52,247 nucleotides of DNA, from contig JACQVX010000178.1 of assembly GCA_016209495.1 (NCBI GenBank), forward strand, positions 1 to 52,247, written 5' to 3'. Below are positions 26,093-47,496 of this stretch, in pieces; positions within the stretch are counted from its first letter, which is position 1; every line of letters starts with the position of its first letter. This stretch comes from Planctomycetota bacterium (GTDB taxonomy: Bacteria > Planctomycetota > JACQVX01). A model generated the notes under the pieces. That model did not search any database, was not told the origin of the DNA, and saw only the letters and a program-made list of their open reading frames with translations. A program made the position numbers and the translations under genes.

Positions 26093-26140
26093 CCCGGGGT
26101 CAATGCTCATGACGATGCCCGGGGTCAATGCTCGTGGCGA
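26093..26140 (+). repeat. Tandem 23-base direct repeat at the P450 start
   Basis: Two copies of a unit beginning CCCGGGGTCAATGCTC lie 25 bases apart (26093-26115 and 26118-26140) and differ at 2 positions. The second copy spans the P450 start codon. The arrangement could be a paired operator for the cluster or a recent small duplication. The rest of the 165-base gap before the P450 holds only the hairpin listed separately. Confidence 0.6.
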
Positions 26141-27513
26141 GTGACAGATGGAACGTGCATCACCAGACCTCTGCCCGCGCCAGGCCCCCGGGGCCGCGCG
26201 GGGTCCCCCTGGTCGGTCAACTGCTCGCCTTCCGCAGGGACCCCACGGGCTTCCTCCAGGACCTCGCCCGGAGGCATGGCGACCTGGTCCGCTTCCGGCT
26301 GGGGAGCCGGACCATCTACCTCCTCAACCACCCGGACCTCATCGAGGACGCCCTCGTCACCCGCGCCCAATGGCTCACCAAGAGCCGGGGCCTGGAGCGC
26401 GCCAGGCCCATCGTCGGGAATGGGCTGCTCACCAGCGAGGGCGAGTTCCACCTGCGCCAGCGCCGGCTCTGTCAGCCGGCCTTCCACCGCGCCCGCCTCG
26501 CCGTCTATGCCCGGGCCTTCGTGGACCACGCCGAGCGCGAGACCGCGCGCTGGGAGGACGGGGCGAACCTGGACATCGCGCGCGCCATGACGCGTCTGAC
26601 CATGGCCATCGTGGCGTGGACCCTCTTCCGGGTCGACGTGGAGGCCGAGGCCTCGGAGATCGGCGAGGCCCTGGAGACCGCCCTGGCCTGGCAGGGGCGG
26701 AGGTTCTACCCCTTCTACGACCTCCTGGCGCGTCTTCCCCTGCCGTCCAACCGGCGCTTCAGGGAGGCCATGGAGCGCCTGGACCGGACCATCCACCGGG
26801 TGATCGACGAGGGCCGGCGCGGCGGCGAGGAGCGCGGGGACCTGCTCTCCATCCTCCTGCGAGCCCGGGACGAGGAGGGGGACGGCCGGGGGATGAGCGA
26901 GGAGCAGCTCCGGGACGAGGCCATGACGGTCTTCCTGGCGGGCCACGGGACCATCGCCCACGCCCTCACCTGGACCTGGCACCTCCTCTCCATGCACCCG
27001 GAGGCCCAGGGGCGACTCCACGCGGAGCTGGACCGGGTACTGGGCGGCCGTGTCCCCACCCCCGAGGACGCGGATCGGCTGGACTTCACCCGCCGCGTCT
27101 TCGCCGAGTCCATGCGCCTCTATCCCCCCGCGTGGCTGCTGGGACGCCGGGCCGCCTCCGACTACCCCGTCGGCGACTATTGCCTGCCGCGGGGATCGAC
27201 CATCTTCCTCTGCCCCTATGTCACCCACCGCGACCCGCGCTTCTTCCCGCGACCGGAGGCCTTCGACCCGGACCGCTGGACCCCCGAGGCGGAGGCCGTC
27301 CGGCCGCGCTACGCCTACTTCCCATTCGGCGGAGGCAACCGGGTGTGCATCGGGGAGGCCTTCGCCTGGCTGGAGGGGGTCCTGGTGCTGGCCTGTGTCG
27401 CCCGGCGCTGGCGGGTGCGTCCCGCCCCTGGGGTCAGGGTCCGCATGGAACCGCGTCTCACCCTGGGCCCCCGCGGTGGACTGCGGGTGCTCCTCGAGGC
27501 CCGCCGTGGATGA
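26128..27513 (+). CDS. Cytochrome P450
   Basis: A soluble bacterial P450 that would oxidise a hydrophobic substrate using external redox partners, none of which is encoded nearby. The proline-rich start [14 protein letters not shown], the ExxR motif [10 protein letters not shown], and the haem loop [16 protein letters not shown] with its Cys ligand are all present in 461 residues. The I-helix reads [10 protein letters not shown]: the acidic residue of the usual A-G-x-E-T-T motif is Gly, which may alter oxygen activation. It is the first gene of the assembly-line cluster, so the substrate is probably the fatty acyl chain or the finished product. The start lies within the downstream 23-base repeat; GTG at 26134 is an alternative. 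Confidence 0.92.
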
Positions 27514-27520
27514 AGGAGGA
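27513..27520 (+). promoter_or_regulatory. Shine-Dalgarno sequence that decides a CTG start
   Basis: AAGGAGGA immediately follows the P450 stop and is 6 bases from CTG at 27527. No ATG, GTG or TTG lies at a suitable distance in that frame; GTG at 27506 is upstream of it, inside the P450 gene. Confidence 0.65.
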
Positions 27521-27526
27521 CGTCCC

Positions 27527-28819
27527 CTGAGCCCCATCGAGAAGGCCCTCTGGCGACTCAGCGACGGCGCCTCCATGAACTTCAGCCTCATGGCGCGGCT
27601 GCGCGGGCCGCTGTCCAGCGGGGCCCTGAGGGCGGCCCTGGACGCCGTCCAGGCCCGCCACCCGCTCCTGAGGGTGCGCATCGCCTCCGAGGGGGGCGGG
27701 GCCGGCGCGCCCGCCTTCCGTCCGGGAGGGGTCCCCCCGCTGCCGCTGCGGGAACTGGAAGGCGGAGAGGACTCCTGGGTCGAGCGGATGGAGGAGGAGA
27801 TCCACCGGGGCTTCCCCTGGGAGACCGGGCCCCTCTTCCGGTGCGTGCTCCTGCGCCACGGGGCCCAGGACGCCCGGGTGATGCTCACCTGCCACCACGC
27901 CGTCAGCGATGGGCTTTCCGCGGCCAAGTTGATGCAAGAGCTACTCCGGGTGGCCGGGGAGGGGGCGCGGCTCCCCCCCCTGGAAGACCGCGGACCCGTG
28001 GACGCGCGGCTGCCGCCGCAGGCGCTCGGTGCCGCCGGCCTCACCCTCCGGCTGCGCTTCGTCCTCCGGGAACTGTGGCGGGACCGCACCCTGGGACGCC
28101 CCGCCTTCCGGCTGGACCACGACGTCCCGCCCCACGAGCGCCGCACCCGCATCACCCCCCACCGCTTCGACGAGGCCTTCACGTCGGCCCTCCTGGAGCG
28201 CGCGCGGAGGGAGCGGGTGACGGTGCACGGCGTGGCCGCGGCGGCCCTGCTGCTGGCGGTGGCCCGGGACGCTGGGGCCGGCCAGGACGCGACGGTGGGC
28301 TGCGCCTCGCCCGTGGACCTGCGGCCGCAGCTCGTGCCCCCCGCGGGTGAGGAGGTGGGCTTCTTCGTGGCCATGTCGAAGTTCCGGCGGCGCATCCGGC
28401 GGGACACGGATCTCTGGGTGCTGGCACGGGCCATCCGCGAGGGACTCAAGCGGGACATGGCGACAAGGTTCCCCGCGGCCACCCTCCCGCTGGTAGCGCG
28501 GCTCTATCGCATGGCGGGCGGCGATGGTGCGAGCCCGCAGGAGCTGGCGCGGCGCTTCGCCGCCGCCACCCCCAACACCACCGGCCTCACGCACCTCGGA
28601 GGGCTGGACGCCCTGGGACGCTTCGGGGACCTGGAGGTGCAGGAGGTCCAGGGGGCGGCCGCCCTCTCGGCCCTGGGCCGGCTGGCGGGCGCCACGGCCC
28701 TCTTCCGCGGACGCCTCAGCTACTTCCTGCTCTGGCCGGAACCCAGCCTGGATCGTTCCCACGCGGAGGCCCTGGCCGGGGACATCCGGCGAGGGCTCCA
28801 GGAGTCGGTGACCCCGTGA
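27527..28819 (+). CDS. Stand-alone condensation-type acyltransferase (PapA-like); CTG start proposed
   Basis: The protein is a single condensation domain of 430 residues. [10 protein letters not shown] near residue 125 is the HHxxxDG catalytic motif, and [12 protein letters not shown] with GFFVAMSKF matches the latch region of the PapA/condensation superfamily. Such enzymes esterify hydroxyl groups with acyl chains carried on a carrier protein or CoA. The ORF-track start at 27050 lies inside the P450. CTG at 27527 has an ideal Shine-Dalgarno 6 bases away and yields LSPIEKALW, typical of the family; GTG at 27506 is the alternative. Its stop overlaps the GTG of the megasynthase (GTGA). A likely role is O-acylation of the beta-hydroxyl made by the assembly line. 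Confidence 0.8.
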
Positions 28820-31800
28820 CCTTGCCGGGCCTCGAGACCCTGGCGGACCTGGTGGAGCATCGCGCCGGGCTCCAGCCCGGGCAGACTGCCTTCCGCTTCC
28901 TGGAGGCGGATGGGGCCGAGATCGCCATCGACTACGACGGCCTGGCCCGGGAGGCCCGGAGGATCGCCGGGGTCCTCCTCCAGGCGGCGGGCCCCGGAGA
29001 CCGGGCCCTCCTCCTCTACCCGCCGGGTCTGGACTTCGTCCGCGCCTTCTTCGCCTGCCAGTACGCCGGCGTGGTCGCGGTCCCCCTGCACCTGCCCCAT
29101 ACCTTGCCCATGGTGGCGAGGTTGCAGGAGATCGCCCGGGACTCCGGGGCCACCGTGGGCCTGGCGACGGGCGAGGTCCTCCAGCGCCAGGGACCGAAGC
29201 TCTCCCAGGTGGCCCTGCTCAAGGAGCTGCGCTGGCTGGCGACGGACGCCGCCACGGAGGCCGCACCCGCGAGCCCGGCGGCCACGCGGCCCGGGGACCT
29301 GGCCCTCCTCCAGTACACCTCGGGCTCGACGGGCACCCCCAAGGGGGTGATGCTCGACCACCGCAACCTGCTGGGGCACGCCGCACAACTCCACGAGGGC
29401 TACGGCTCCCGCGAATGGCCCGGCACCCCCGTCGTCTCGTGGCTCCCCACCTTCCACGACATGGGCCTGGTGAGCGGCCTCCTCGCGCCCCTCTACTCGG
29501 GCCGTCCCTGCGTGATGCTCTCCCCCGCCTCCGTGGCCCATCGCCCGTTGCGCTGGCTGGAGGCCATCTCCCGGCACCGGGCCACCGGCAGCGGCGGGCC
29601 CAACTTCGCCTACGAGCTCTGCGTGCGGCGGGTCCCGCCGGAGGGGCGCCGGGGGCTCGACCTCTCCTGCTGGCGGGTGGCCTTCTGCGGCGCCGAACCG
29701 GTCCGCGCCCAGACCCTGGATCGCTTCGCCGAGGCCTACGCCCCCTTCGGCTTCCGCCGGGAGGCCTTCCTCCCCTGTTACGGCCTGGCGGAGGCAACCC
29801 TGGCGGTGACGGGTCGCGGGGCCCCGCCGCGGCCCGACGTCCCGCTGGAATCGCCGCTCTCCTGCGGGCGTCCGCTCGAAGGGGTCGAGGTGCGCATCGT
29901 GGACCCGGCGAGCGGCCGCCCCCGTCCCCCCGGGGGGGAGGGGGAGATATGGGTGGCCGGACCCGGCGTCGCCCGGGGCTACTGGGGGAGGGCGGAGGAG
30001 ACGGAACGCACCTTCCGGGCGCGCATCGAGGGCGAGGAGGGCGGCCCCTGGCTGCGCACCGGCGACCTGGGCTTCCTGCGGGAGGGTGAGCTGCACGTCA
30101 CCGGCCGCGCGCGGGACCTCATCATCATCCGGGGGGTGAACTACCACCCCCAGGACCTGGAGGCCACGGTGGAGGGCTGCCACCCGGCCCTGGAGTGGGG
30201 CGGCGCGGCGGCCTTCTCCATCGACGCCGACGGAGAGGAAGGGCTCGCCATCGTGGCCGAGGCGAGGCGCAGCGCCCGCCGGGCGGTGAAGGGGGCCGTG
30301 GACGACGTGCGGGCGGCGGTCACGGAAGCCCACGGTATCGTCCCGCGGGCGGTGGCGCTCTTGCAGCCGGGCCGTCTCCCCCGGACCTCCAGCGGGAAGG
30401 TGCGACGCGCGGCCTGCCGGGAGGCCTTCCTCGCCGGGACCCTCGAGGCCATCGAGGAGTGGCACGCCCCGGCGGTCCCATGCCCGCCGCCGCCGGAGGC
30501 CGGCGTCCGGTCGCCCGAGGCGGGCGCCGACGCCATCCGCGCCTGGCTCCTGGCAAGGGCGGCGCGGGAGCTGGGCCTGAGCGCCGCGGACCTGGACCCC
30601 CACGCCACCTTCGCGGCCCTGGGGCTGGACTCCCTGACGCTCGCCTCCCTGGCAGGGGAGCTGGAGGCCTGGCTGGGCAGACCGCTCCCGGTCACGTTGC
30701 TCTGGGACCACCCCACCCCCGACGCCCTGGCCCGGCACCTGGCGGCGGCTCAGGTGTCCTCGCCCGCCGAGACGCCAGCGCGGCCATGCGCCGCCGAAGA
30801 GCCCATCGCCGTGGTGGGGATGGCCTGCCGATTCCCCGGGGCGGACCACCCGGAGGCATTCTGGCGCCTGCTGCGGGAGGGGGTGGACGCCGTCTCGGAG
30901 GTCCCCGCGGACCGCTGGGACATCGAGGCCTGGTACGACCCGCGGCCGGCGACCCCCGGGAAGATGTCTACCCGCTGGGGCGGCTTCGTCGGTGGCATCG
31001 ATCGTTTCGACGCGGCCTTCTTCGGCATTGCGCCGCGGGAGGCGGCGGCCATGGACCCCCAGCAGCGCCTGCTCCTGGAGGTGGGCTGGGAGGCCCTGGA
31101 GGACGCCGGCCTCGCCCTGGAGCGGGCGGGCCAGGGCCGCGCCGGGGTCTACATCGGTATCTCCAGCAGCGACTACTCCAGGCACCTCCTCGGGGACGCG
31201 GGGCGGGTGGACGCCTACGCGGGCACGGGCAACGCCCACAGCATCGCCGCCAACCGCCTCTCCTACCTCCTGGACCTGCGGGGGCCGAGCCTGGCGGTGG
31301 ACACGGCGTGCTCCTCGTCCCTGGTGGCGATCCACCTGGCCTGCCAGGGCCTGCGCCAGGGCGAGTGCCGCATGGCCCTCGCGGGGGGCGTGAACGTCAT
31401 CCTCTCCCCGGAGCTCACCGTGGCCTTCTCCCAGGCCCGGATGATGGCCGCCGACGGCCGGTGCAAGGCCTTCGATGAGCGCGCCGACGGCTACGTGCGC
31501 GGGGAGGGCTGCGGGGTGGTGGTCCTCAAGCGCCTCGCCGACGCCCGGGCCGACGGCGACACGGTCCTGGCGGTCATCCGGGGCAGCGCCGTCAACCAGG
31601 ACGGCCGCAGCAACGGGCTGACGGCCCCCAGCGGTCTCGCCCAGCAGTCGGTCATCCGCGAGGCGCAGGGACGAGCCGGCGTGACCCCCTGGGAGATCGG
31701 CTACGTGGAGGCCCACGGCACCGGCACCCCCCTGGGCGACCCCATCGAGGTGGCGGCCCTGAGCGGGGTCTTCGCCGGGGCGCCCTGCGCCCTGGGGTCG

Positions 31801-34800
31801 GTGAAGACCAACCTGGGCCACCTGGAGGCCGCGGCGGGCATCGCCGGCCTCATCAAGGTGGTCCTGGCCCTCCTCCACGAGGAGCTCCCGCCGACGCTGC
31901 ACCTGCGGCGCGTCAACCCGCGCATTAAGAACCGGGGACTGCCGTTCATCTTCCCCGGCGTGGCCCTCCCCTGGGAGGCAGGGAGGGAGCGACGCATCGC
32001 GGGGGTCAGCTCCTTCGGCTTCGGCGGGACCAACGCGCACTTGGTGGTGGAGGAGGCGCCCGCATCGGGCGCTGCGGGGCCGGAGGCGGGGCCAGCGGCG
32101 GGCCCGGAGCGGCCCCGGCAGCTCCTGGCCCTCTCGGCCCGCAGCCCCACGGCCCTCGCCGCCCTGGCGCGGGCCATGGCGCGGGAGCTGGAGGCGGGTG
32201 CGCCCCTGGCGGACCTCTGCCACAGCGCCAACACAGGGCGCTCGGCCATGCCCCACCGCCTGGCCCTGACCGCCGGCTCCGCCGCGGAGCTGGCGGAGCG
32301 CCTGGAGGCCTTCGTCGCCTCGGGCGACCCGCGTCCTGCCTGTGGCGTTCCGCCTCGGGTGGCCTTCCTCTGCACGGGCCAGGGGGCCCAGCGCCCGGGG
32401 ATGGGCGCGGAGCTCTATCGTACCCAGCCCGTCTTCCACTCCGTCCTGGACCGATGCGAGGCCGCCCTCGCAGAGAGGCGAGGGCGGTCGCTCCTGGACG
32501 TCATGTTCGGCCGCACGCCCGATGCGGCGCTGCTCCTGGATCGCACCGCGTGGACGCAGCCCGCCCTCTACGCCCTGGAGGTGGCGCTGGCGGAGCTCTG
32601 GGCCTCCTGGGGCATCCGCCCCGCCATGGTCCTCGGCCACAGCGTCGGCGAGCTGGCGGCCGCCTGCGTCGCGGGTGCCCTGGACCTGGAGGAGGGTCTC
32701 CTCCTGGCGGCGGAGCGGGGCAGGCTCATGGACGCCCTCCCGGAGGGCGGGGCCATGGCGGCGGTCTTCGCCCCGCGGGCGGCGGCCCGGGAGGCCATCG
32801 AGCGGGCGGGCGCGGCGGGGGCCGTGGAGGTGGCGGCGGTGAACGCGCCCCGGCATACGCTCATCTCCGGTGAGGCCCCCGCGCTGGACCGGGTCCTGCA
32901 GGACCTCGATGCCGGCGGGATCGGACACCGGCGCCTGCGGGTCTCCCACGCCTTCCATACGCGGCTCCTGGAGCCCATGCTGGGCGAGCTGGAGGCGCTG
33001 GCGGGCCGGCTGCAGGCGCGCGAGCCGCGCCTGCCCTGGGCCTCCAACCTGGACGGGGCCTTCCTGCGCGGGGCGCCGGGGGGCGCCTACTGGCGGCGCC
33101 AGGCGCGGGACCCGGTGGAGTTCGCCGCGGGGGTGCGGACGATCCAGGCCGCTGGGGTGGACCTGTGGCTGGAGCTGGGGCCCGGGGCGACCCTCCTGGG
33201 CCTGGCCCGCGCCGCCGGTGCCTCCGGGGGCATGCTGGCCTCCCTGGCCCGGGACCGGGACGACTGGGACGTCCTCCTGGAGGGGCTCGGGCGCCTCTAC
33301 GAGGCGGGGGCGGCGGTGGACGGACGGGGCCTGGACCGGGGCTTCCACCGGCGGCGGATCCGGCTGCCGACCTATCCCTTCGAGCGGGTGCGGCACTGGA
33401 TCGAGGCGGCACCGCGCCGGGACGCGGGGCCACCGGATCGCCCGGTCCACGTCCTGGCCCTCTCGGCGGCGGGGGAGGACGCCCTGCGGGACCGCGCACG
33501 GTCCCTCGAGGGCTACCTGCAGGCGCCGTCGCTGCCGGCCCTGGGCGACCTCTGCGCCACGGTGAACGGGGCCGACCGTGGGGAGGCGCACCGGATGGCC
33601 GTCGTGGCCGCGGGCCATGAGGAGTTGAGGGAGGGGCTGGCTCGCTGGCTCGGGGCGCCTCCCGACCCGCCCGCGGAGGGGCGGCCCCGGCTGGCCTTCC
33701 TCTTCACCCCGATCGGATCCCAGTACCCCGGCATGGCCCGGCAGCTCCACCGCACCCAGCCGGCATTCCGTTCGGCCCTGGAGGAGTGCCTCGCGCACCT
33801 GGCCCCCGCCTCCTTCCCGGTGGCGGACTACCTCCTGGCGGCGGAGCCGCCCCGGCCCCTCCAGGTGGACGAGCCCTGGCGCACCTTCCCGGCCCTCTTC
33901 GCCTTCGACTACGCCCTCGCGCGGGTCTGGGAGTCCTGGGGGGTGCGGCCCGACGCGGTCCTGGGCTACAGCTTCACCGAGAACGTCGCCGCCTGCATCG
34001 CCGGGGTCCTTCCCCTGGAGGAGGCCACACGGATGCTCCTGGAAGAGGTGCGCCTCTTCGAGGAGCTCCCGCGGGGGGCCATGGCAGCGGTGGCCTGCTC
34101 CGAGGCCCGCCTCGCCCCCTGGCTGGGGCCCCTGGGCGGGCGCGTGCGCGTCGCCGTCCCCATGGCGCCGGAGGTGGTGGTGATCTCCGGCGAGGTCGAG
34201 GCCGTGGAGGCGGTGCTTCGCCGCTGCGAGGCGGAGGGGATCTGGACGCGGCGCTGGGAGGTGAGTCGCGCCTTCCACGGCCCCCTGGTGGACCCCATGC
34301 TGGAGGCCTGGACGGCCTTCCTCCGGGGGCTGCGCTTCACCCCTCCGCGCATGCGCTGGGTCACGAACCTCACGGGCGCCTGGTTCGACCCGGACGAGAC
34401 GCCGCCGGCGGCCTACTGGGCACGCCAGCCCCGGGACCCCACGCGCCTCGAGCCCTGCCTGCGCTTCCTCCGGGGGGAGGGCTACCGGTTCTTCCTGGAG
34501 ATCGGCCCCAGGCCGAATCTCTGCCGCCTCTTCGAACGGGCCATGCCCCCCGAGGCGGGGACTCGATTCATCCCGTCCCTGGGCGGCGAGCCTTCGGGCT
34601 CGACCTGGCGCGACCTGCTCTCGGCGACGGTCCGACTCTATACCGGGGGCGTCCCCCTCTCCTGGCGGGGCTTCGAGGAGGGCTACCGCCGCTCGCGGGT
34701 GCCCTTGCCGGTGGACCTCGCCGCCGCGGCCGGCGAGGCGGTCGAGGACGACCGTAGGGTCTCCCGGGGGCAGGTGCGCGGGCTCTTCTACGAGTTGACC

Positions 34801-37800
34801 CTTCGACCCAAGCACCGGGCGCACCGGGGCGGCGTCCTCGACGGATCCAGCGGGCCCTTGCTGGTCTTCGGCGACGGGGGACCGGTGGGCCACTTCCTCG
34901 TCTCCGCCCTGGAGGCCCGGGGTCTCGCCTGTGCCCAGGTCCACCCGGGGGAGGACTGGGAACAACTCGACGGCGGCGGCTACCGCTGCGACCCCACGCG
35001 GCCGGTGCACCTGGACGTCCTCCTGGCGTCCCTCCCGCGCCCGCCTCTGGCGGTCGTGGACCTGCGGGGCCTGGACCCGGGTCCCCCTGCGCTCGCCTGC
35101 GAGCGCCTCCTCGTCCTGGTGCAGGCGCTGCTGCGACGCGGGGGCCCGACGCCCCCGCGCCTGCACATCGCAACCCTCGGGGCCGTGGGCACCGGGCGCG
35201 AGGGCGCGTCGCTGGAATTGGGCTCGGCGCCCCTCTGGGGGCTGGCCCTGGGCATCGCCCTGGAGCGCCCGGAGTGCTGGGGAGGTGTGGTGGACCTGGA
35301 GGCGGGGCCTGGCGTGCAGCAAGCGCGGTGGCTCATACAGGAGCTGGCTCGCCCCGACGGGGAGACCCTGGTGGCCTATCGCCGAGGCCGGCGCCATGTG
35401 GTGAGGTTGGTCCCGGCGCCGGACCCGGACCCCGAGGGCCGCGCACCGTATTTCCAGTGCCGGCCGGACGGGACCTACCTCATCACCGGCGGGCTGGGCC
35501 GCCTGGGCCTGAAGCTGGCGCGGTGGCTGGCAGGCCGGGGGGCGAGGCGCCTCGTCCTGGTGGGCCGTCGCGGCCTCCCACCCCGCGTCGAGTGGGGACG
35601 GGAGGAGGCGGACCGCACGACGGCGGCGCGCATCGCCGTGGTGCGTGGCCTGGAGGCCCGCGGCGCCACGGTGCGCGTCCTGGAGGCGGACGTGGCGGAC
35701 GCCGAGGCCATGGGGAGGCTGCTGGGCCGGGTGCGCGAGGAGCTGCCCGAGCTGCGCGGGGTCTTCCACCTCGCGGGCGAGCTGCGGGCGCGGCCCCTGG
35801 AGTCGGTGGACGCCGGGGACCTGGATGCCGTCCTGCGGCCCAAGGTGCAGGGGGCATGGGTGCTGCACGAGCTCACCCGGGAGCTGCCCCTGGACGTCTT
35901 CGTACTCTACTCCTCGGGCGCAGCGGTCTGGGGTTCCCGCGACCTCGCCCCCTACGCCGCCGCCAACGCCTACCTCGGGGCCCTGGCCTGGCATCGCCGG
36001 GCCCTGGGCCTACCGGCGGTGGCCCTGGACTGGGGACCTTGGGCGCAGGGCGCCATGGGCGCCGGGCGCATGGAGGAGCTGGAGCGCTCCGGCGTGGGCG
36101 CCCTGGCGGACGGGCACGCCCTGGCGGCCCTGGGCCTCGCCCTCAGCACCGGGGGCGCCCGCTACGCGGTCGCGGAGCTGCGGCCCGCGCGCCTGCGCGC
36201 CCTCTACGAGGCCACAGCCCTGGCGCCCCTCGTGGAGGACCTCGCCCCGCCCGAGGCCGAGGGGGCCGGATCGGCCTCCCCGGCCGGGCCGGGGTCCGCG
36301 GCAGGGACCCTGGCGGGACGCATCCGCGAGGCCCCCGAGGAGGAACGGCGCGACCTGGTGGGGGACGCCCTGCGCACCCGCGTCGCACGGGCGCTGGGGG
36401 TGGACCCGGACCGGCTGGACCCGGTTCGACCCCTGGACACCCTGGGGCTGGACTCCCTCATGGCCATGGAGCTGAAGAAGGCCATCGAAGTGGACCTTGG
36501 GGTAGAGGTCCCCCTCGTGCGCCTCCTCCGGGGGACCGGCCTTGCGTCACTCACCGACGTCCTGCTCGCGGAGCTGGCCTCCGGCGAGGACGCCGGCCCG
36601 GCCCTGCCCGAGGCCCGTCCCGACCCGGCCTCGCGCTACGAGCCCTTCCCCCTCTCGGACATGCAGCAGGCCTACTGGCTGGGGCGGGGCGGCCACTTCG
36701 AGCTGGGGAACGTGGCGGCCCGTGGCTACATGGAGTTCGAGGCCGCGGGCCTGGAGCTTCCGCGGCTGGAGGCCTCCCTGCGCCGGCTCATCGACCGCCA
36801 CGACATGCTGCGGGCGGTGGTCCTCTCCGAGTCGGCCCAGCGCGTCCTTCCGGAGGTCCCGCCCTGCGTCATCGAGGCGGAGGACCTGCGCGACATGCCG
36901 GCCTCGGAGCGCGAACGCCGGCTGCTGGCGGCGCGGGGGCGCATGGTCGGCGCGGGCTCCCCCGATCCGTCTCGCTGGCCTCTCTTCGAGGTCCGCGCCC
37001 ACCTCCTCCCCGGGGGGCGGCTGCGGCTGCACGTCAGCGTGGAGAACCTGATCCTGGATGGCTGGAGCTTCCTCCTCCTGGTGGAGGAGTGGCGCCGGCT
37101 CTATGAGGCCCCCGACGACCCGCTGCCGCCCCTGGAGCTGGGCTTCCGGGACTACGTCCTCCACCTCGCAGCCCTGGAGGATCACCCCCTCTACCGCCGC
37201 GACCGGGACTGGTGGTGGGCGCGCCTGGAGTCTCTCCCCCCGGCCCCGGAGCTGCCCCTGGCCGCCCCGGTGAACGAGCTGCGGGCGCCCCGCTCGGTGA
37301 ACCGCACGGCGCGGCTCGACGAGGCCGCCTGGACGACCCTCAAGGCCCGCGCTGCCCGAGGGGGGCTGACGGCATCGGGGGCGGTCTGCTCCGCCTTCGC
37401 CGAGGTGCTCTCGACGTGGAGCGCCACGCCCCGCTTCACCATCAATTGCCTGCACTTCAACCGCCTCCCCGTCCACCCCCAGGTCCAGGCCATCGCCGGG
37501 AACTTCAGCTCCACGGGGCTCCTGGCCGTGGACTCCCAGGCCGACGCCTCCTTCCGGGAGCGGGCCCGGCAGGTCCAGGAGCAGCTCTGGGCCGACATGC
37601 ACCACGGACATGTCAGCGGTGTGCGAGTCCTTCGAGAGCTGAACCGGCTCCGGGGCGGGAGCACCCGAGCCTCCATGCCCATCGTCTACTCCAGCACCCT
37701 GGCACTGGACGCGGGGCGCGCCGGGAGTTCGCCCCTCGCCTGGCTCGGGGAGGTGGTCCATCGCGGGGTGCAGACCCCCCAGGTCCTCCTCGACCACCAG

Positions 37801-40407
37801 GTCTCGGAGCTGGGGGGCGAGCTGGTCTTGAGCTGGGACGTGCTGGAGGAGGCCTTCCCCCCGGGGATGATCTCCGCGATGTTCGAGGCCTACCTCGAGC
37901 TCCTCCGCCGCCTGGCAGGGGACGAGGCCGCCTGGGAGGCGGGGGCAGCGGCAGCCATCCCCGCAGGGCAGCGAAGGGTCCGGGAGGAGGCGAACGCCAC
38001 CGATGCGGCGGTCCCCACGGATCTGCTCCAGGGGCTCGTCCGCCGGCAGGCGCGGGACACCCCCGAGGCCTGCGCGGTGGTGGGCGGTGGGCGCAGGCTC
38101 AGCTACGGCGAGCTGGAGCGCCGGGCCGAGGCCCTGGGCCTGGAGCTTCGGGGACACGGCGTCGCGCCGGGCCGCCTGGTGGCCGTGGTCATGGAGAAGG
38201 GATGGGAGCAGGCGGTGGCGGTCCTCGCGGTGCTTCACGCCGGCGGCGCCTACCTGCCCCTGGACCCCGCCCAGCCGGCGGAGCGCCTGCGGCTCCTGAT
38301 GGCCGACGCGGAGGTGCGGGTGGCGCTCACCCAGCCCCACCTGGACGCGGCGCTCCCCTGGCCGGAGGGGGTGGAGCGCATCGCGGTGACGGGGGCGGAG
38401 CCGATCGACGTGGGTCCCATCGAGCCCGTGCAGGGGACCCGGGACCTGGCGTACGTCATCTACACCTCCGGGTCCACCGGCGTCCCCAAGGGTGTGATGA
38501 TCGAACACGAGGGGGCGGTCAACACCGTCCTCGATGTCAACCGACGCCTCGCCCTCGGGCCCACGGACAAGGTGCTGGCCATCTCCTCCCTGGGCTTCGA
38601 CCTCTCCGTCTGGGACCTCTTCGGAACCCTGGCCGCCGGCGGGACCGTCGTGTTCCCGCCCCCCGCGGCACTCCGGGAGCCCGCGGCCCTGGAGACGATC
38701 ATCCGCGAGGAGGGGGTGACGGTATGGAACTCGGTCCCCGCCCTCCTGGAGATGCTGGTGGAGCACGGCGAGGCCCTGCCGCCGACCCTGCGCCTCGCCA
38801 TGCTCAGCGGCGACTGGATCCCCCTCTCCTTGGCGGACAGGGTCCTGGCCCGCGACCCCCACGTGGAGCTGGTGAGCCTGGGCGGGGCCACGGAGGCCTC
38901 CATCTGGTCCATCGCCCACCCGGTGCGGCGCCTGGAGGCCGGCTGGGGCAGCGTCCCCTACGGTCGCCCCCTGGCGAACCAGCGTCTCCATTGCCTGGAT
39001 GGGCGCCTGGAGGCGCGCCCCGACCAGGTGCCGGGGGACCTCTACATCGCGGGGACCGGCCTGGCGCGCGGCTACTGGAGGGACCCCGCACGGACTGCGG
39101 CCGCCTTCATCCTGCACCCCCGCACCGGCGAGCGTCTCTACCGCACCGGCGACCTGGGGCGCTACCGGGAAGGGGGAGTCATCGAGTTCCTCGGCCGTGC
39201 CGACCAGCAGGTGAAGGTCCGAGGCTACCGGGTGGAGCTGGGGGAGGTGGAGGCGGCCCTGGCGCAGCACCCGGCAGTCAGGGCCGCGGCGGTGACGGCC
39301 GCAGGCGAGCGCCACCGCCGCAGACTTGTCGCCCACGTCGTGCCCTGGTCCGCCCCCGGTCCCGGGCACGAGGAACTGGCGGCATTCCTGGCGCAACGGC
39401 TCCCGGACTACATGTTGCCCACGGCCTTCCTGTCGCGGGAGGCACTCCCCCTGACGCCCAACGGGAAGGTGGACCGCAGGTCCCTCGAGTGCGCCGAGGG
39501 GCCTCCCGGGGACCCCGCGGAGCCGGTGGCCCCGCAGGGACATTGGGAACGCCTCCTGGCAGGGGTATGGGAGGATGTGCTGGAGGTGCATCCCATCGGC
39601 GCCACGGACGACTTCTTCCGCATGGGGGGGGACTCGCTCCAGGCCGTACGCGTCCTCGCCCGCGTGGAGGAGCTCACGGGGCGGCGCCTCCCGGTGGCGG
39701 CCCTCTTCGCCGACCCCACCGTGGTGCGACTGGCCCGGGCCCTGGAGCTACCCCGGTCGGCACCCACGTGCCTGGTCCCCATCCGCGAGGGGGGCACCGG
39801 CGCGCCGCTCGTCCTGGTGCACCCGGTGGGGGGCCACGTCCTCTGCTACAGGGACCTTGCCCTCGGCCTGGCGAGCGGACGACCGGTCCACGGCCTGCGC
39901 GCCCGCGGCCTGGACGGGGAGTGCGAGCCCCTGCGGGACCTGGTCGCCATGGCCGAGGCCTACGTCGGAGAGGCCCGCCGCGTCGTGGGCGAGGGGCCGT
40001 GGTTGCTGGCGGGCTGGTCTATGGGTGGGCTCGTCGCCTTCGAGATGGCCCGCCTGCTGCGTACGGCCGGGGAGGAGGTCGGGCTCCTCTGCCTGGTGGA
40101 CGCCCTGCCGCCGCGGCCGGGCGTCGATGTCGCCTCCTGGGACGGGGACGAGGTCACGCGACGCGTCTACGAGGCGAACGCGGAGGCCCTCCGTACCTGG
40201 CGGCCGCGGCCCTCTCCCGGCCCGGTCACGATCCTGGTGGCCCGGGACAGGCAGGGCGACCCACTCGCGGAGGCCGAGGCCCTGTGGCGGCCGCTGGTGC
40301 TCGGGCCACTGGTCCTGAGGCCCATCCCGGGCGATCACGACTCGGTGGTGCGTCCGCCCTGCGTGGCGGCCCTGGCCGAGGCACTGGACAGGCTCCTGGG
40401 GCCGTGA
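28816..40407 (+). CDS. Hybrid assembly line FAAL-ACP-KS-AT-AT'-KR-ACP-Cy-A-PCP-TE
   Basis: A 3863-residue fatty-acid/polyketide/peptide synthase. Domains in order: fatty-acyl-AMP ligase 1-555 (YTSGSTGTPKG; GGPNFAYELCVRR is FAAL-typical); ACP about 572-650 (Ser606); KS 661-1085 (Cys832, His967, His1002); AT1 about 1182-1500 (GHSVGEL Ser1276, HAFH motif, so malonyl predicted); AT2 about 1626-1935 (GYSFTEN Ser1719; degenerate); KR with TGGLGRLG near 2224, Ser2367/Tyr2380/Asn2384 and an A-type Trp; ACP (Ser2547); heterocyclisation-like condensation domain about 2608-3055 (ExxxxDxxS from Glu2743); adenylation about 3070-3560; PCP (Ser3607); thioesterase 3660-3863 (GWSMGG Ser3735, His3841). By hand the A-domain code reads DLWNMSLIW plus Lys, close to the cysteine code. 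No DH, ER or MT is seen. Predicted product: a beta-hydroxyacyl cysteine or thiazoline carboxylate. Confidence 0.93.
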   Translation: MTLPGLETLADLVEHRAGLQPGQTAFRFLEADGAEIAIDYDGLAREARRIAGVLLQAAGPGDRALLLYPPGLDFVRAFFACQYAGVVAVPLHLPHTLPMVARLQEIARDSGATVGLATGEVLQRQGPKLSQVALLKELRWLATDAATEAAPASPAATRPGDLALLQYTSGSTGTPKGVMLDHRNLLGHAAQLHEGYGSREWPGTPVVSWLPTFHDMGLVSGLLAPLYSGRPCVMLSPASVAHRPLRWLEAISRHRATGSGGPNFAYELCVRRVPPEGRRGLDLSCWRVAFCGAEPVRAQTLDRFAEAYAPFGFRREAFLPCYGLAEATLAVTGRGAPPRPDVPLESPLSCGRPLEGVEVRIVDPASGRPRPPGGEGEIWVAGPGVARGYWGRAEETERTFRARIEGEEGGPWLRTGDLGFLREGELHVTGRARDLIIIRGVNYHPQDLEATVEGCHPALEWGGAAAFSIDADGEEGLAIVAEARRSARRAVKGAVDDVRAAVTEAHGIVPRAVALLQPGRLPRTSSGKVRRAACREAFLAGTLEAIEEWHAPAVPCPPPPEAGVRSPEAGADAIRAWLLARAARELGLSAADLDPHATFAALGLDSLTLASLAGELEAWLGRPLPVTLLWDHPTPDALARHLAAAQVSSPAETPARPCAAEEPIAVVGMACRFPGADHPEAFWRLLREGVDAVSEVPADRWDIEAWYDPRPATPGKMSTRWGGFVGGIDRFDAAFFGIAPREAAAMDPQQRLLLEVGWEALEDAGLALERAGQGRAGVYIGISSSDYSRHLLGDAGRVDAYAGTGNAHSIAANRLSYLLDLRGPSLAVDTACSSSLVAIHLACQGLRQGECRMALAGGVNVILSPELTVAFSQARMMAADGRCKAFDERADGYVRGEGCGVVVLKRLADARADGDTVLAVIRGSAVNQDGRSNGLTAPSGLAQQSVIREAQGRAGVTPWEIGYVEAHGTGTPLGDPIEVAALSGVFAGAPCALGSVKTNLGHLEAAAGIAGLIKVVLALLHEELPPTLHLRRVNPRIKNRGLPFIFPGVALPWEAGRERRIAGVSSFGFGGTNAHLVVEEAPASGAAGPEAGPAAGPERPRQLLALSARSPTALAALARAMARELEAGAPLADLCHSANTGRSAMPHRLALTAGSAAELAERLEAFVASGDPRPACGVPPRVAFLCTGQGAQRPGMGAELYRTQPVFHSVLDRCEAALAERRGRSLLDVMFGRTPDAALLLDRTAWTQPALYALEVALAELWASWGIRPAMVLGHSVGELAAACVAGALDLEEGLLLAAERGRLMDALPEGGAMAAVFAPRAAAREAIERAGAAGAVEVAAVNAPRHTLISGEAPALDRVLQDLDAGGIGHRRLRVSHAFHTRLLEPMLGELEALAGRLQAREPRLPWASNLDGAFLRGAPGGAYWRRQARDPVEFAAGVRTIQAAGVDLWLELGPGATLLGLARAAGASGGMLASLARDRDDWDVLLEGLGRLYEAGAAVDGRGLDRGFHRRRIRLPTYPFERVRHWIEAAPRRDAGPPDRPVHVLALSAAGEDALRDRARSLEGYLQAPSLPALGDLCATVNGADRGEAHRMAVVAAGHEELREGLARWLGAPPDPPAEGRPRLAFLFTPIGSQYPGMARQLHRTQPAFRSALEECLAHLAPASFPVADYLLAAEPPRPLQVDEPWRTFPALFAFDYALARVWESWGVRPDAVLGYSFTENVAACIAGVLPLEEATRMLLEEVRLFEELPRGAMAAVACSEARLAPWLGPLGGRVRVAVPMAPEVVVISGEVEAVEAVLRRCEAEGIWTRRWEVSRAFHGPLVDPMLEAWTAFLRGLRFTPPRMRWVTNLTGAWFDPDETPPAAYWARQPRDPTRLEPCLRFLRGEGYRFFLEIGPRPNLCRLFERAMPPEAGTRFIPSLGGEPSGSTWRDLLSATVRLYTGGVPLSWRGFEEGYRRSRVPLPVDLAAAAGEAVEDDRRVSRGQVRGLFYELTLRPKHRAHRGGVLDGSSGPLLVFGDGGPVGHFLVSALEARGLACAQVHPGEDWEQLDGGGYRCDPTRPVHLDVLLASLPRPPLAVVDLRGLDPGPPALACERLLVLVQALLRRGGPTPPRLHIATLGAVGTGREGASLELGSAPLWGLALGIALERPECWGGVVDLEAGPGVQQARWLIQELARPDGETLVAYRRGRRHVVRLVPAPDPDPEGRAPYFQCRPDGTYLITGGLGRLGLKLARWLAGRGARRLVLVGRRGLPPRVEWGREEADRTTAARIAVVRGLEARGATVRVLEADVADAEAMGRLLGRVREELPELRGVFHLAGELRARPLESVDAGDLDAVLRPKVQGAWVLHELTRELPLDVFVLYSSGAAVWGSRDLAPYAAANAYLGALAWHRRALGLPAVALDWGPWAQGAMGAGRMEELERSGVGALADGHALAALGLALSTGGARYAVAELRPARLRALYEATALAPLVEDLAPPEAEGAGSASPAGPGSAAGTLAGRIREAPEEERRDLVGDALRTRVARALGVDPDRLDPVRPLDTLGLDSLMAMELKKAIEVDLGVEVPLVRLLRGTGLASLTDVLLAELASGEDAGPALPEARPDPASRYEPFPLSDMQQAYWLGRGGHFELGNVAARGYMEFEAAGLELPRLEASLRRLIDRHDMLRAVVLSESAQRVLPEVPPCVIEAEDLRDMPASERERRLLAARGRMVGAGSPDPSRWPLFEVRAHLLPGGRLRLHVSVENLILDGWSFLLLVEEWRRLYEAPDDPLPPLELGFRDYVLHLAALEDHPLYRRDRDWWWARLESLPPAPELPLAAPVNELRAPRSVNRTARLDEAAWTTLKARAARGGLTASGAVCSAFAEVLSTWSATPRFTINCLHFNRLPVHPQVQAIAGNFSSTGLLAVDSQADASFRERARQVQEQLWADMHHGHVSGVRVLRELNRLRGGSTRASMPIVYSSTLALDAGRAGSSPLAWLGEVVHRGVQTPQVLLDHQVSELGGELVLSWDVLEEAFPPGMISAMFEAYLELLRRLAGDEAAWEAGAAAAIPAGQRRVREEANATDAAVPTDLLQGLVRRQARDTPEACAVVGGGRRLSYGELERRAEALGLELRGHGVAPGRLVAVVMEKGWEQAVAVLAVLHAGGAYLPLDPAQPAERLRLLMADAEVRVALTQPHLDAALPWPEGVERIAVTGAEPIDVGPIEPVQGTRDLAYVIYTSGSTGVPKGVMIEHEGAVNTVLDVNRRLALGPTDKVLAISSLGFDLSVWDLFGTLAAGGTVVFPPPAALREPAALETIIREEGVTVWNSVPALLEMLVEHGEALPPTLRLAMLSGDWIPLSLADRVLARDPHVELVSLGGATEASIWSIAHPVRRLEAGWGSVPYGRPLANQRLHCLDGRLEARPDQVPGDLYIAGTGLARGYWRDPARTAAAFILHPRTGERLYRTGDLGRYREGGVIEFLGRADQQVKVRGYRVELGEVEAALAQHPAVRAAAVTAAGERHRRRLVAHVVPWSAPGPGHEELAAFLAQRLPDYMLPTAFLSREALPLTPNGKVDRRSLECAEGPPGDPAEPVAPQGHWERLLAGVWEDVLEVHPIGATDDFFRMGGDSLQAVRVLARVEELTGRRLPVAALFADPTVVRLARALELPRSAPTCLVPIREGGTGAPLVLVHPVGGHVLCYRDLALGLASGRPVHGLRARGLDGECEPLRDLVAMAEAYVGEARRVVGEGPWLLAGWSMGGLVAFEMARLLRTAGEEVGLLCLVDALPPRPGVDVASWDGDEVTRRVYEANAEALRTWRPRPSPGPVTILVARDRQGDPLAEAEALWRPLVLGPLVLRPIPGDHDSVVRPPCVAALAEALDRLLGP

Positions 40408-41537
40408 AGGTGGCCCTGGCCATCGTCGGCGCGGGACCGTACGGCCTGGGTCTCGCCGCCCACGCCCGCGGGGCGGGCATCTCCTGCCAGCTCTTCGGCC
40501 GGCCCATGTCCTTCTGGCGGGAGGGCATGCCCGAGGGGATGCCCCTGCGCTCGCCACCGGCCCTGACGCTGCTCTCCACGCCGGGGGCGGGTTACACACT
40601 GGAGGCGCACCTGGAGGCTCGGGGGGGCCCGGGCGCGGCGCGGGGACCCGTCCCCAGGGAGCTCTTCCTGGAGTACGCCGAGGAGTTCCGCCGTCGCGAG
40701 GGTCTGGAGTGCACCGCGGGTCGAGTGGACGTCCTCGCCCGGGAAGGCGACCGCTTTGTGTTACAGGCCGGCGGCGAGCGCCACGAGGCCACCGACGTGG
40801 TCCTGGCCACCGGCCCCGCCCTCCACCCATGGGTACCGCCCCAGGTGAGCGAATCGCTTGCGCGGTCCTCGTGGCGGCATAGCTCGGAGCCTCCGGGCCC
40901 GGAGGGGCTCGCCGGCGCCCGGATCCTCGTCCTGGGCGGGGGTCAGAGCGCCATGGAGGCCGCGGCCCTCTCGGCCCGCGCCGGGGCCAGGGTCACGGTG
41001 GTGGCACGCGCGCGTCGCCTGCGGGTCGTGGACAGCCGGGGAATCCCGGGGCGCGGGGCCATCGCCCTGGTGCATCGCTCTACGGCGGTCCTTCGCCGAC
41101 TCCCCGCGGGCCTGCGGCGGCCGCTGGCGCGGCTCCTCGCCCCCACCACCGTGGAGACCTGGTCGCACGGCGTCCTCCGGGGCCTGGGCGTGGGGTTCTG
41201 CCTGGGCGCGCGCGACGGCACCTTCGACGAGGGGCCCGGGGGGATCCACCTGCGCCTGGCGGACGGGCGCGGGCTAGCGGCGGACCGCGTCGTCTGCGGC
41301 ACCGGCTACCGGGTGGAACTCTCCCGGCACCCGCTCCTCGCGGGCAGCTCGCTCCTGGCGGCCCTGCGCACCCACGACGGGCTCCCGGTGCTGGATGACC
41401 GGGGCCGCTCCTCCGTCGAGGGGCTCTGGTTCGCGGGGCTGCTGGCCTGGGACCGCTTCGGGCCCGCCTCGAACTTCGTCTTCGGGGCGCCGGCCCAGTG
41501 TCGGGCCATCATCGACCGGGGCGTGGCGAGGCGGTAG
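40404..41537 (+). CDS. FAD-dependent monooxygenase-like oxidoreductase
   Basis: The 377-residue protein has two dinucleotide-binding motifs: VGAGPYGLG at the N-terminus (FAD) and LGGGQSAMEAAAL near residue 175 (NADPH). The intervening RHSSEP and the late GTGYRV motif fit flavin-containing monooxygenase/N-hydroxylase-like enzymes. The ORF track merges it with a long shadow frame from 37212; GTG at 40404 overlaps the megasynthase stop (GTGA) and gives the right N-terminus. It is therefore translationally coupled to the assembly line and probably tailors its product, for example by S-, N- or C-oxidation or by oxidising a thiazoline to a thiazole. The reaction cannot be read from sequence. Confidence 0.85.
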   Translation: MKVALAIVGAGPYGLGLAAHARGAGISCQLFGRPMSFWREGMPEGMPLRSPPALTLLSTPGAGYTLEAHLEARGGPGAARGPVPRELFLEYAEEFRRREGLECTAGRVDVLAREGDRFVLQAGGERHEATDVVLATGPALHPWVPPQVSESLARSSWRHSSEPPGPEGLAGARILVLGGGQSAMEAAALSARAGARVTVVARARRLRVVDSRGIPGRGAIALVHRSTAVLRRLPAGLRRPLARLLAPTTVETWSHGVLRGLGVGFCLGARDGTFDEGPGGIHLRLADGRGLAADRVVCGTGYRVELSRHPLLAGSSLLAALRTHDGLPVLDDRGRSSVEGLWFAGLLAWDRFGPASNFVFGAPAQCRAIIDRGVARR

Positions 41538-41546
41538 GCGGCCCCC

Positions 41547-43913
41547 TTGTACCGCCGACTCGCGGACCTGGTGCTGGGGCACCGCCTCCTGGCGACCGTG
41601 GCCCTGGCGACCGCGGTGGCCGTCGCCGCCGGGGGTCTGCATCGCCTGGCGGTGGACTTCAGCGTCAGCGCCTTCTTCGGGGATGATGACCCGGAGCGTC
41701 TCTTCCTCGATGGATTCCGGTCCCGCTGGGGGCCCGACGACGACGTCCTCGTGGTGGTGGTGGAGGCGGAGGACGGCGCGGGGCTCCTCGCGCCTGGGCG
41801 GCTGCGCCGCATCCAGGCGACGGTGGAGAGGCTGCGGCGGGTCCCGGAGGTCCTGGAGGTGGAGGCCATCACCACCGTCGCGCGCATGCGCAGTCCGGAG
41901 CCGGATACCCTGGACCTCCGGCCGCTCATCGAGTCCATGCCCGAGGGCGCGGCCTTCCATGCGTGGCGGCAGGAGGTCCTGGCGCACCCCATCGCCGTCC
42001 CGACGCTGCTCTCCCCGGACGGACGCACCGCCGCCATCGCCGTCGAGGTGGGCACGCGCACGGACGACCTGCAGGCGGTGCGGGGGCTGGTGGGGCGCAT
42101 CCACGCGGCCCTGGAGGACCTCCAGGGGATCGACGGCCTGCGCTACGCCGAGGCCGGCCTGCTGGCGCAGAGGTCGGTCTTCTACACCCAGCTCGTGCGG
42201 GACCAGGGGCGGTTCATCCCCCTGGCGGCGGGGATGGTCTGCCTGTGCCTGGCGCTCATCTTCCGGCGCCCCCACGGCGTCCTCGTGCCCGCCGTGGCGG
42301 CGGCCGTCCCCACGGTCATGGTCTTCGGCCTCATGGGCTGGTGCGGCGAGCCCGTGGGACTCCTCAACCAGGCCCTGTTCACCCTGCTGCCGGTCATCGC
42401 CGTCGCCGACGCGATCCACATGGTGGGCCGTTTCCACGAGGAGCTGCGCCTCCGCTCGCCGGGAGGCGGAGAACCGCCGTGGGAGGTACGCAGGGAGGCC
42501 CTCGCCCGGGCCTTCGCCAAGGTGGGCGTGGCCTGTCTGCTGACCAGCCTCACCACCGCCGTCGGCTTCCTCTCCCTCTGCGCCGGGGAGATGTCCATCC
42601 TCCGACGCTTCGGGGCCTACGCCGCCGCCGGGATCGTCATGGCCTACGGGACCGTGCTGCTCATCGTCCCGCTCTTGCTCTCCTCGACCCGGGGCCCGTC
42701 CCCGCGGCCGGTAGGCGTGGGCGGGGACGGGATCACGGCACGGTGGCTCCTGGCCGTCGCTCGTCCGGCCATGCGCCACCCCTGGCGCGTAATGGCCGTG
42801 ACGGCCGCCCTCGGCGCGGCCGGCGTCCTCCTGGGTGGCCGCGTGGTCGTGGACACCCGGCTCACGGGGATGCTCTCTCCGGGGCTCCCCATCAGCCACG
42901 CCAACCGAGTCGTGGATCGGCAGCTCGGTGGTTTCCTCGCACTCTACGCGGAGCTGCGAGGCGAGGGGCCGGTCCTGGAGGACCCCGCGCTGCTCGCCGC
43001 CCTCCGGGAGGTCGAGGAGTGGGCGCGAGGGCGGACCGGCGTGCGGGCCGTGACCTCGCCCGCGACCTACCTCGCCATGGTCGCGGAGCTCCTGACCGGG
43101 GAGCGGGCCGTCCCGGTGACCCCGGAGGCGGTCGCCCAGTACTACCTGATCCTGGAGGGAGACCGGGGGCTGGCGGAGACCGTGAGCACCGGGCGCGATG
43201 GCGGGCGGCTCCTTGTGCGGACGCAGGACCTGGGGGCGCGGGCCTTCGCGGAGCTGGCGGAGGCGCTCGATGGGAGGCTTCGCGGGGCCCTGGAGGGCCT
43301 ACCGGTGGAGGTCCGGGTGACGGGCACGAACCGCCTCGCCTACCGCGGCTTCAGCCACCTCACCCTGGACCTGCGGGACGGGCTGATCCTGGCCATCGGT
43401 GCCATGACGGCCGTCTTCGGCCTGCTCTTCCGGCGGCCGCGCATCGCGCTCGTCTGCCTGGTGCCCAACGTCCTGCCCCTGGTGGCGGGCCTGGGCCTCA
43501 TGGGGGCCCTCGGATGGCCCCTGGAGCTGACCCCTGCGGCCATCTTCACGGTGGTCCTGGGCCTCGCGGTGGACGACACCCTGCACTTGATGGCGCGGAC
43601 CCGGGAGGAGCTGCGGGGGGGAAGTGGTGCCGAAGAGGCGGTCCTGCGGGCGATCCGCCACACCGGCGACGCGGTGGTCATCACCTCGGTGATCCTCTGC
43701 GGCGGCCTGGGCGTCAACCTCCTCAGCTCCTTCCGGGCCCTGGTGGTGCTAGGCGCCCTGGGGACATGGATGATCTTCATCGCCCTGGTCTGCGACCTGG
43801 TCTTGCTCCCCGCCCTCCTTGCGGCCTTTGGCGGGGACGGAAGCTGGGGCCGCCTACGCGGTGGGGGTCCCCCGGCGCCATCGGTAGATCCGGCGTGGTT
43901 CCTCCGCGGGTAA
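41547..43913 (+). CDS. RND/MMPL-family exporter
   Basis: The 788-residue membrane protein has the RND layout: one N-terminal helix (LLATVALATAVAVAAGGL), a large periplasmic loop, a block of helices including PLAAGMVCLCLALIF, VADAIHMVGRFHEE and LTSLTTAVGFLSLCAGE, then the same order repeated (from about residue 400, ending in VDDTLHLMARTREEL and further helices). Proton-relay-type acidic residues sit in the VADAIH and VDDTLH segments. MMPL proteins often export lipids made by FAAL/PKS clusters. It starts at TTG 41547, 9 bases after the oxidoreductase, and is the last gene of the cluster, so it most likely carries the product out of the cytoplasm. Confidence 0.87.
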   Translation: MYRRLADLVLGHRLLATVALATAVAVAAGGLHRLAVDFSVSAFFGDDDPERLFLDGFRSRWGPDDDVLVVVVEAEDGAGLLAPGRLRRIQATVERLRRVPEVLEVEAITTVARMRSPEPDTLDLRPLIESMPEGAAFHAWRQEVLAHPIAVPTLLSPDGRTAAIAVEVGTRTDDLQAVRGLVGRIHAALEDLQGIDGLRYAEAGLLAQRSVFYTQLVRDQGRFIPLAAGMVCLCLALIFRRPHGVLVPAVAAAVPTVMVFGLMGWCGEPVGLLNQALFTLLPVIAVADAIHMVGRFHEELRLRSPGGGEPPWEVRREALARAFAKVGVACLLTSLTTAVGFLSLCAGEMSILRRFGAYAAAGIVMAYGTVLLIVPLLLSSTRGPSPRPVGVGGDGITARWLLAVARPAMRHPWRVMAVTAALGAAGVLLGGRVVVDTRLTGMLSPGLPISHANRVVDRQLGGFLALYAELRGEGPVLEDPALLAALREVEEWARGRTGVRAVTSPATYLAMVAELLTGERAVPVTPEAVAQYYLILEGDRGLAETVSTGRDGGRLLVRTQDLGARAFAELAEALDGRLRGALEGLPVEVRVTGTNRLAYRGFSHLTLDLRDGLILAIGAMTAVFGLLFRRPRIALVCLVPNVLPLVAGLGLMGALGWPLELTPAAIFTVVLGLAVDDTLHLMARTREELRGGSGAEEAVLRAIRHTGDAVVITSVILCGGLGVNLLSSFRALVVLGALGTWMIFIALVCDLVLLPALLAAFGGDGSWGRLRGGGPPAPSVDPAWFLRG

Positions 43914-43944
43914 CGCCTCCGTGCCCGTCTCGAGTGGGGCCAGC

Positions 43945-44058: not shown

Positions 44059-44061
44059 ACT

Positions 44062-47494: not shown

Positions 47495-47496
47495 CT

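Follow-up and report, generated by a model that had tools for sequence, protein, structure and literature searches.

Mycobacterial phthiocerol dimycocerosate pathways combine loading of a fatty acid by a fatty acyl-AMP ligase (FAAL), extension by a polyketide synthase (PKS), esterification by PapA5 and export by MmpL. Fatty acids are joined to cysteine by the massiliachelin, micacocidin and agrochelin synthases, as in RS02200 of Massilia sp. NR 4-1, where FAAL, acyl carrier protein (ACP), ketosynthase (KS), acyltransferase (AT), ketoreductase (KR), condensation (C), adenylation (A) and peptidyl carrier protein (PCP) domains share one protein; for massiliachelin, three extensions of hexanoate by the FAAL-ACP-KS-AT-KR protein and aromatisation to a 6-pentylsalicyl unit have been proposed, and a single-cysteine thiazoline acid was isolated from this system (PMC10291242). 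In thiolactomycin biosynthesis, TlmB carries a PKS module followed by heterocyclization (Cy), A (Cys), PCP and thioesterase (TE) domains on one protein, clustered with the P450 TlmD1 (PMC5518548). Here we describe a five-gene cluster (26128-43913) on a 52,247-nucleotide contig of a Planctomycetota bacterium (GCA_016209495.1, JACQVX010000178.1; the whole contig is referred to as the window), built around a megasynthase that joins PKS and nonribosomal peptide synthetase (NRPS) domains. Judged by sequence, its product is very probably a fatty acid-cysteine hybrid of some kind, and we lean towards the view that the cluster makes and exports such a lipid by the ordered pathway set out below, whose chemical steps are all predicted.

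The cluster shares with the mycobacterial FAAL/PKS/PapA5/MmpL lipids the logic of loading, extension, esterification and export; the mycobacterial pathways, however, have no NRPS cysteine step, and the MMPL protein found here is of the HAE3 type and falls below the mycobacterial cut-offs. The massiliachelin-type synthases resemble it in their fatty-acid start and cysteine thiazoline, but differ in their three extensions and aromatisation, a methyltransferase (MT) domain, a second cysteine and a thiazolinyl imide reductase, and the available part of their description mentions no second AT (here called AT'), PapA-like or MMPL gene (PMC10291242). An MT domain, a second Cy domain and a thiazolinyl imide reductase were all absent from the megasynthase and the window genes scanned. 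Thiolactomycin differs in its iterative PKS using methylmalonate, the lack of a FAAL, cysteine as the proposed sulfur donor and a dedicated desulfurase (PMC5518548). The massiliachelin/micacocidin and TlmB comparisons were made with published descriptions, not sequences.

Among sequenced loci, plasmid pNLP2 of Nostoc sp. 'Lobaria pulmonaria (5183) cyanobiont' carries FAAL-ACP, P450, KS-AT-..-ACP, Cy-A(Cys code)-PCP-TE and an efflux transporter, with identities to the cluster of 44% (FAAL), 57% (KS), 48% (Cy), 54% (A) and 33% (TE). It differs in being divided among four genes, in having a C-methyltransferase for the KR (KS-AT-MT-ACP), an MFS transporter for the MMPL protein and a haloperoxidase upstream, and in lacking both AT' and an adjacent PapA-like gene; its P450 matches at 26% over a short stretch. 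Myxobacterial clusters of the form FAAL-ACP / P450 / KS-AT-AmT-Ox-C-A-PCP-TE likewise share the FAAL-ACP, P450 and PKS-NRPS-TE set, with ATs 50-51% identical to the first AT (AT1) and 43-44% to AT', but have an ordinary C domain for Cy, and aminotransferase and luciferase-like oxygenase domains where AT' and KR stand. The exact domain order of the megasynthase was not found in the sampled genomes, which is no proof of its absence elsewhere. To that extent the original prediction, which knew of no described product from this order, agrees with our comparison; a claim that no comparable system exists would be too strong, given these near precedents. Every component type is known, the exact combination did not turn up elsewhere in the samples, and three domains look altered.

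Pfam identified two AMP-binding, one KS, two AT, one KR, three PP-binding, one Condensation and one Thioesterase domain in the megasynthase (Table 1), all far above cut-off, and NCBIfam and Pfam agree on every domain class of the cluster, confirming the 11-domain order that had been predicted. Catalytic residues, previously reported for the domains at large, are intact in KS, ACP1, ACP2, PCP, AT1, KR and TE, the last as assigned before, but are altered in AT' and Cy.

Table 1. Genes of the cluster and domains of the megasynthase, with window coordinates.
Feature	Coordinates	Strand	Basis or motifs
Cytochrome P450, 461 aa	26128-27513	+	PF00067 E 2.5e-80
PapA5-like acyltransferase, condensation superfamily	27506-28819	+	PF16911 PapA_C E 2.8e-23, PF00668; HHAVSDG intact
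Megasynthase, 3863 aa, 11.6 kb, one open frame	28816-40407	+	FAAL-ACP-KS-AT-AT'-KR-ACP-Cy-A-PCP-TE
FAAL-type loading ligase without FAAL-specific insertion	28816-30459	+	FAALs are best solved relatives
ACP1	30544-30741	+	PF00550; LGLDSL
KS	30799-32070	+	PF00109, PF02801, tree; DTACSSS / EAHGTGT / NLGH
AT1, malonyl-type	32365-33216	+	PF00698; GQG / GHSVGE / RGR / HAFH intact
AT', AT fold kept, catalytic site altered	33436-34500	+	Alignment, AlphaFold model; PIG, GYSFT, Glu for Arg
KR	35470-36045	+	PF08659 E 9e-61, motif comparison; Tyr/Asn intact (YAAAN), Trp present, LDD absent
ACP2	36346-36549	+	PF00550; LGLDSL
Cy	36616-37995	+	Matches to solved structures; ENLILDGWS, VYSS, LLDHQ
A, cysteine-type code	38041-39468	+	Pfam, alignment to BmdB; DLWNMSLIW(K)
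PCP	39523-39750	+	Pfam; GGDSL
TE	39805-40395	+	PF00975 E 5.5e-23; GWSMGG and GDH
FAD/NAD(P)-dependent oxidoreductase, possible flavin monooxygenase	40404-41537	+	PF07992, PF13738
MMPL/RND (HAE3-type) transporter	41547-43913	+	PF03176 E 1.9e-25

In the pathway that we propose, the FAAL-type ligase would adenylate a fatty acid and load it onto ACP1, AT1 would put malonate on ACP2, and the KS would extend the chain once, with the KR reducing the β-ketone to a hydroxyl. The A domain would load cysteine onto the PCP and Cy would join the β-hydroxyacyl chain to it, plausibly closing a thiazoline; an altered Cy that only condenses would instead give an N-acyl-cysteine product. Hydrolysis by the TE would yield a carboxylic acid, the PapA-like enzyme may add a second acyl chain to the β-hydroxyl as an ester, oxidations would fall to the P450 and the flavoprotein, and the MMPL protein would export the lipid. 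AT' would take part as a folded, catalytically altered AT without a malonyl-transfer role. We consider a single extension with a β-hydroxyl reasonably probable; for the product itself, a thiazoline is a plausible outcome that we stop just short of calling probable.

The solved chains nearest to the loading ligase are FAALs (PDB matches with E values of 1e-141 to 1e-63, the next class at 2e-53 or worse), as its earlier label implied. The FAAL-specific insertion, however, is absent: the YGLAE-to-IVDP stretch that covers it is 43 aa long, against 61-68 aa in 11/11 comparison FAALs (from cyanobacteria, myxobacteria, proteobacteria and one mycobacterium). We therefore describe the domain as FAAL-like by its matches, although it is shortened at this point. 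Deletion of the insertion in FAALs enables acyl-CoA formation no more than weakly (PMC8460268), and because of this, and of the fusion of ACP1 in cis, we still expect that the ligase would load an acyl chain onto ACP1.

The A domain reads as cysteine-activating, its code DLWNMSLIW being identical at seven of nine positions to the DLYNLSLIW of the BmdB cysteine module (Tyr to Trp and Leu to Met), which supports the predicted coupling to cysteine. Among other Cy-linked A domains, one from Hyalangium shares the Trp and several share the Met. The condensation domain can be assigned from its structural matches to the true heterocyclization subtype: Cy structures match with E values of 7e-101 to 3e-60 (EpoB 7e-101, HMWP2 4e-84 and BmdB 8e-78), whereas ordinary C-domain structures do so at about 1e-9.

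The megasynthase KS is the sole PKS-type KS found in the metagenome-assembled genome (MAG); the other match is 32% identical and lies in a 460-aa frame. In the best KS tree, which left out the MicC and RS02200 sequences, it falls among some of the KSs located after a loaded ACP, a FAAL-linked Leptolyngbya KS being one of them (97/88), and the massiliachelin-like KSs are placed elsewhere. Its identity is 61-68% to the former, against 49-52% to the KSs of Rhizobium rhizoryzae and Serratia symbiotica. By the usual rule a KR with Trp before the active site and no LDD motif is A-type, and the present KR reads as such. The extension module is single and complete, and its KR is intact, as expected for the single malonate extension predicted before; its single use is unproven, because the massiliachelin synthase of FAAL-ACP-KS-AT-KR order is proposed to extend hexanoate in three rounds.

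Several observations weigh against the pathway as proposed. In the Cy domain, the DxxxxDxxS motif reads ENLILDGWS, with Glu in place of the first Asp, and the Thr of the catalytic dyad is replaced by Ser. The KS tree that the original prediction had called for keeps the massiliachelin-like KSs apart in its best topology, but an approximately unbiased (AU) test leaves a grouping with them standing (p 0.336). Adjacency and gene packing are all that tie the putative PapA, P450 and flavoprotein steps to the product. Finally, carrier proteins need a phosphopantetheinyl transferase (PPTase), and two models (PF01648, TIGR00556) found none in the MAG; this absence means little because the MAG is only 86% complete, and the enzyme may be missing from it or divergent.

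The changes in Cy could mean that the domain condenses without cyclising and that the TE frees a linear N-(β-hydroxyacyl)-cysteine lipid, an outcome that we judge rather unlikely. At the first DxxxxDxxS position, Gln, Ser and Asn are also seen in other Cy domains. The DxxxxD aspartates are structural, forming a salt bridge to Arg, and it is the Asp-Thr dyad that acts in cyclodehydration, a step severely impaired by dyad mutation in the Cy domains studied (PMC9547227). The dyad Thr is replaced in 4/23 Cy sequences (Ser here; Ala in Nostoc pNLP2, Streptomyces NBC_00503 and Acidobacteria PL23a), all of which belong to Cy-A-PCP-TE ends (Fisher p 0.015, scorable subset), while the Cy domains of this comparison without a following TE retain it. 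Thr is also kept in one TE-terminated Cy of the 23-sequence table and in a second in a longer locus. The association of Thr loss with a TE was noticed post hoc and among related sequences, so we treat it as no more than a lead; TE-terminated cysteine modules lacking the dyad Thr are a possible functional subclass. Cyclisation, on the other hand, is favoured by the hydroxyl that Ser retains, and by the dyad Asp and helper Gln (LLDHQ), both of which are kept. Of the thiazoline predicted earlier, the true Cy subtype and these two residues hold up, but ring closure is not secure, because the dyad Thr is replaced by Ser here and by Ala in three related Cy domains that precede a TE. Within the same phylum, 7/343 genomes (the source included) have Cy domains, none with an adjacent FAAL in the stretches of ~20 kb that were read.

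Less probable again is an iterative PKS, by which a medium-chain fatty acid would be extended three times, aromatised to a 6-alkylsalicyl unit and joined to cysteine in the manner of massiliachelin and micacocidin. RS02200 has FAAL, ACP, KS, AT, KR, C and A domains, and its pathway releases a 6-pentylsalicyl-thiazoline acid (PMC10291242); moreover, plasmids of Rhizobium rhizoryzae and Serratia symbiotica encode FAAL-ACP-KS-AT-KR-ACP-Cy-A, with the larger domains 38-52% identical to those here. The active-site stretch of the KR is similar to those of alkylsalicylate-type clusters, and KR residues do not separate the two readings. The KS nonetheless stands apart in the best tree, with the limit set by the AU test, and is closer in identity to other KSs; the cluster also lacks the massiliachelin-type second Cy and reductase, and the window showed no genes for siderophore uptake.

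A thiotetronate-like route, with the Cys-loaded PCP donating sulfur and the P450 readying the chain for sulfur insertion, appears highly unlikely. A PKS-ACP-Cy-A(Cys)-PCP-TE end in TlmB and an essential P450 in its pathway are elements that recur in the cluster, and the thiotetronate sulfur donor equivalent can come from elsewhere in the genome (PMC5518548); however, no cysteine desulfurase or sulfur transferase is present among the window genes scanned, the cluster has no FabF-type resistance gene, and the KR, which looks active, would reduce away the keto group required in a thiotetronic acid. That the cluster is non-functional or decaying, as the unusual residues of AT', Cy and the loading ligase and the PPTase not found might suggest, is the least credible reading of all, with 11.6 kb open without a frameshift, the AT1 active site and the other catalytic motifs intact, the gene overlaps kept and the missing PPTase of little meaning in a MAG of this completeness.

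In AT', several residues conserved throughout ATs are replaced. The domain aligns over its full length to type I ATs, has its own KS-AT linker, and is modelled by AlphaFold as a confident AT (pLDDT 88.9). Compared with 31 other ATs, near-universal positions have changed from Gly-Gln of GQG to Pro-Ile, from Gln of TQP to Phe, from the His and Gly of GHSxG to Tyr and Thr, from Asn to Met, and from the malonate-binding Arg, kept in 31/31 of the others, to Glu. The HAFH motif reads RAFH. The catalytic Ser and His are retained, but the oxyanion Gln, the elbow Gly and the malonate-binding Arg are lost; AT1 has none of these substitutions and carries the malonyl-specific AT motif set. Because conserved AT residues are replaced, malonyl loading by AT' is unlikely, and the domain probably has no malonyl transferase role; a structural or acyl-hydrolase role is possible. 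Its branch is among the longest in a first AT tree and the longest in a second, and the two trees neither show nor reject a duplication from AT1 (AU p 0.375). One AT'-KR scan of Genome Taxonomy Database (GTDB) contigs, together with searches of 199 genomes of the same phylum, 297 from the phylum to which an Acidobacteria MAG belongs and 195 from that of a Myxococcus strain, returned no AT' orthologue with a tandem AT, the best identity being 43-45%, to ordinary ATs. A plasmid PKS of Streptomyces sp. NBC_00503 (1146-6545 of its locus) has the order KS-AT-AT-DH-ACP, and its first AT reads PYG where GQG is usual; a tandem AT pair with one altered member therefore occurs outside the present locus as well.

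Taken together, TE-terminated cysteine modules with a Cy domain lacking the dyad Thr could form an unrecognised group to which this synthase would belong, with a product other than an ordinary thiazoline, an AT' that is possibly hydrolytic or acyl-sensing, and a new class of exported cysteine lipid; we offer this as speculation and think it unlikely. If the pathway proposed above is correct, a lineage that has hardly been sampled would combine mycobacterial-style exported-lipid logic (FAAL, PKS, PapA, MMPL) with NRPS chemistry on cysteine, in a single pathway short enough to clone. Two questions follow from the altered domains: what activity a Cy domain has when its dyad contains Ser or Ala and a TE comes after it, and why an AT without the malonate-binding Arg is retained.

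The free condensation acyltransferase of the original prediction does belong to the condensation superfamily and can be refined to a PapA-like protein, scoring 82.9 bits against PF16911 (cut-off 30), though below the cut-off of the NCBIfam PapA5 model. Its nearest structure is the phthiocerol dimycocerosyl transferase 8s6l (E 7.6e-34), and by analogy it is a good candidate for O-acylation of the β-hydroxyl. The solved chains nearest to the P450 are the bacterial P450s 7wzl and 3dbg, and the flavoprotein is weakly similar to the monooxygenase 4usr (E 2e-8); neither protein has a close characterised relative among the data searched. The MMPL protein scores 184 bits with TIGR00921, under that model's cut-off, and the mycobacterial models are likewise not reached. 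A 23-nt direct repeat (26093-26140; two copies, 25-nt spacing) lies at the start of the P450 gene, and because the first ATG falls inside the second copy, the true start may be further in.

The window is an entire contig of a 4.08-Mb MAG, and is chromosomal, since it also encodes ribosomal proteins S6 and L9, DnaB, ValRS and ClpC. A 16S gene was looked for in the MAG and not found. No second genome of the class was present in the genome set searched, and the source bacterium represents a deep, barely sampled lineage. The five genes are tightly packed on the same strand: 4-nt GTGA overlaps link the megasynthase gene to both neighbours (28816-28819 and 40404-40407), the P450 gene runs 8 nt into the PapA-like gene, and 10 nt separate the stop of the flavoprotein gene from the MMPL start. 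The earlier description of this arrangement holds with slight corrections to gene starts. PPTase apart, the cluster is probably complete, because an apparent selenium-linked purine operon lies upstream, and a short degenerate stretch and opposite-strand polysaccharide genes lie downstream. The degenerate stretch (43920-44255) reads TGIEVHRHLGPGLLEPI; inspected by eye, it is a GxxExxY-type fragment continuing in another frame, and it probably represents gene remnants at the cluster edge. Beyond it, 44250-50409 on the minus strand encodes an O-antigen ligase-TPR protein, a polyprenyl sugar transferase and a glycosyltransferase, a likely exopolysaccharide locus.

Adjoining the cluster upstream, 16456-25962 (plus strand) encodes an amino-acid-kinase family protein, a YgeW-like carbamoyltransferase, a YgeY-like hydrolase, a xanthine dehydrogenase, a flavin reductase, a GNAT protein and a PALP enzyme. 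The xanthine dehydrogenase scores 868 bits with TIGR03311 (selenium-dependent type; cut-off 830), and the operon looks like a selenium-linked purine catabolism set. We weighed whether the PLP enzyme might serve the cluster in a sulfur or amino-acid function, but rejected this because it appears to belong to this operon. Within the same operon, the product of 22947-23855 (plus strand) is a fusion of flavin reductase and YCII domains, and that of 23852-24691 (plus strand) joins SH3 domains at its N terminus (SH3_2, two stretches, E 1.5e-16) to a GNAT acetyltransferase, a fusion that looks unusual for a bacterium.

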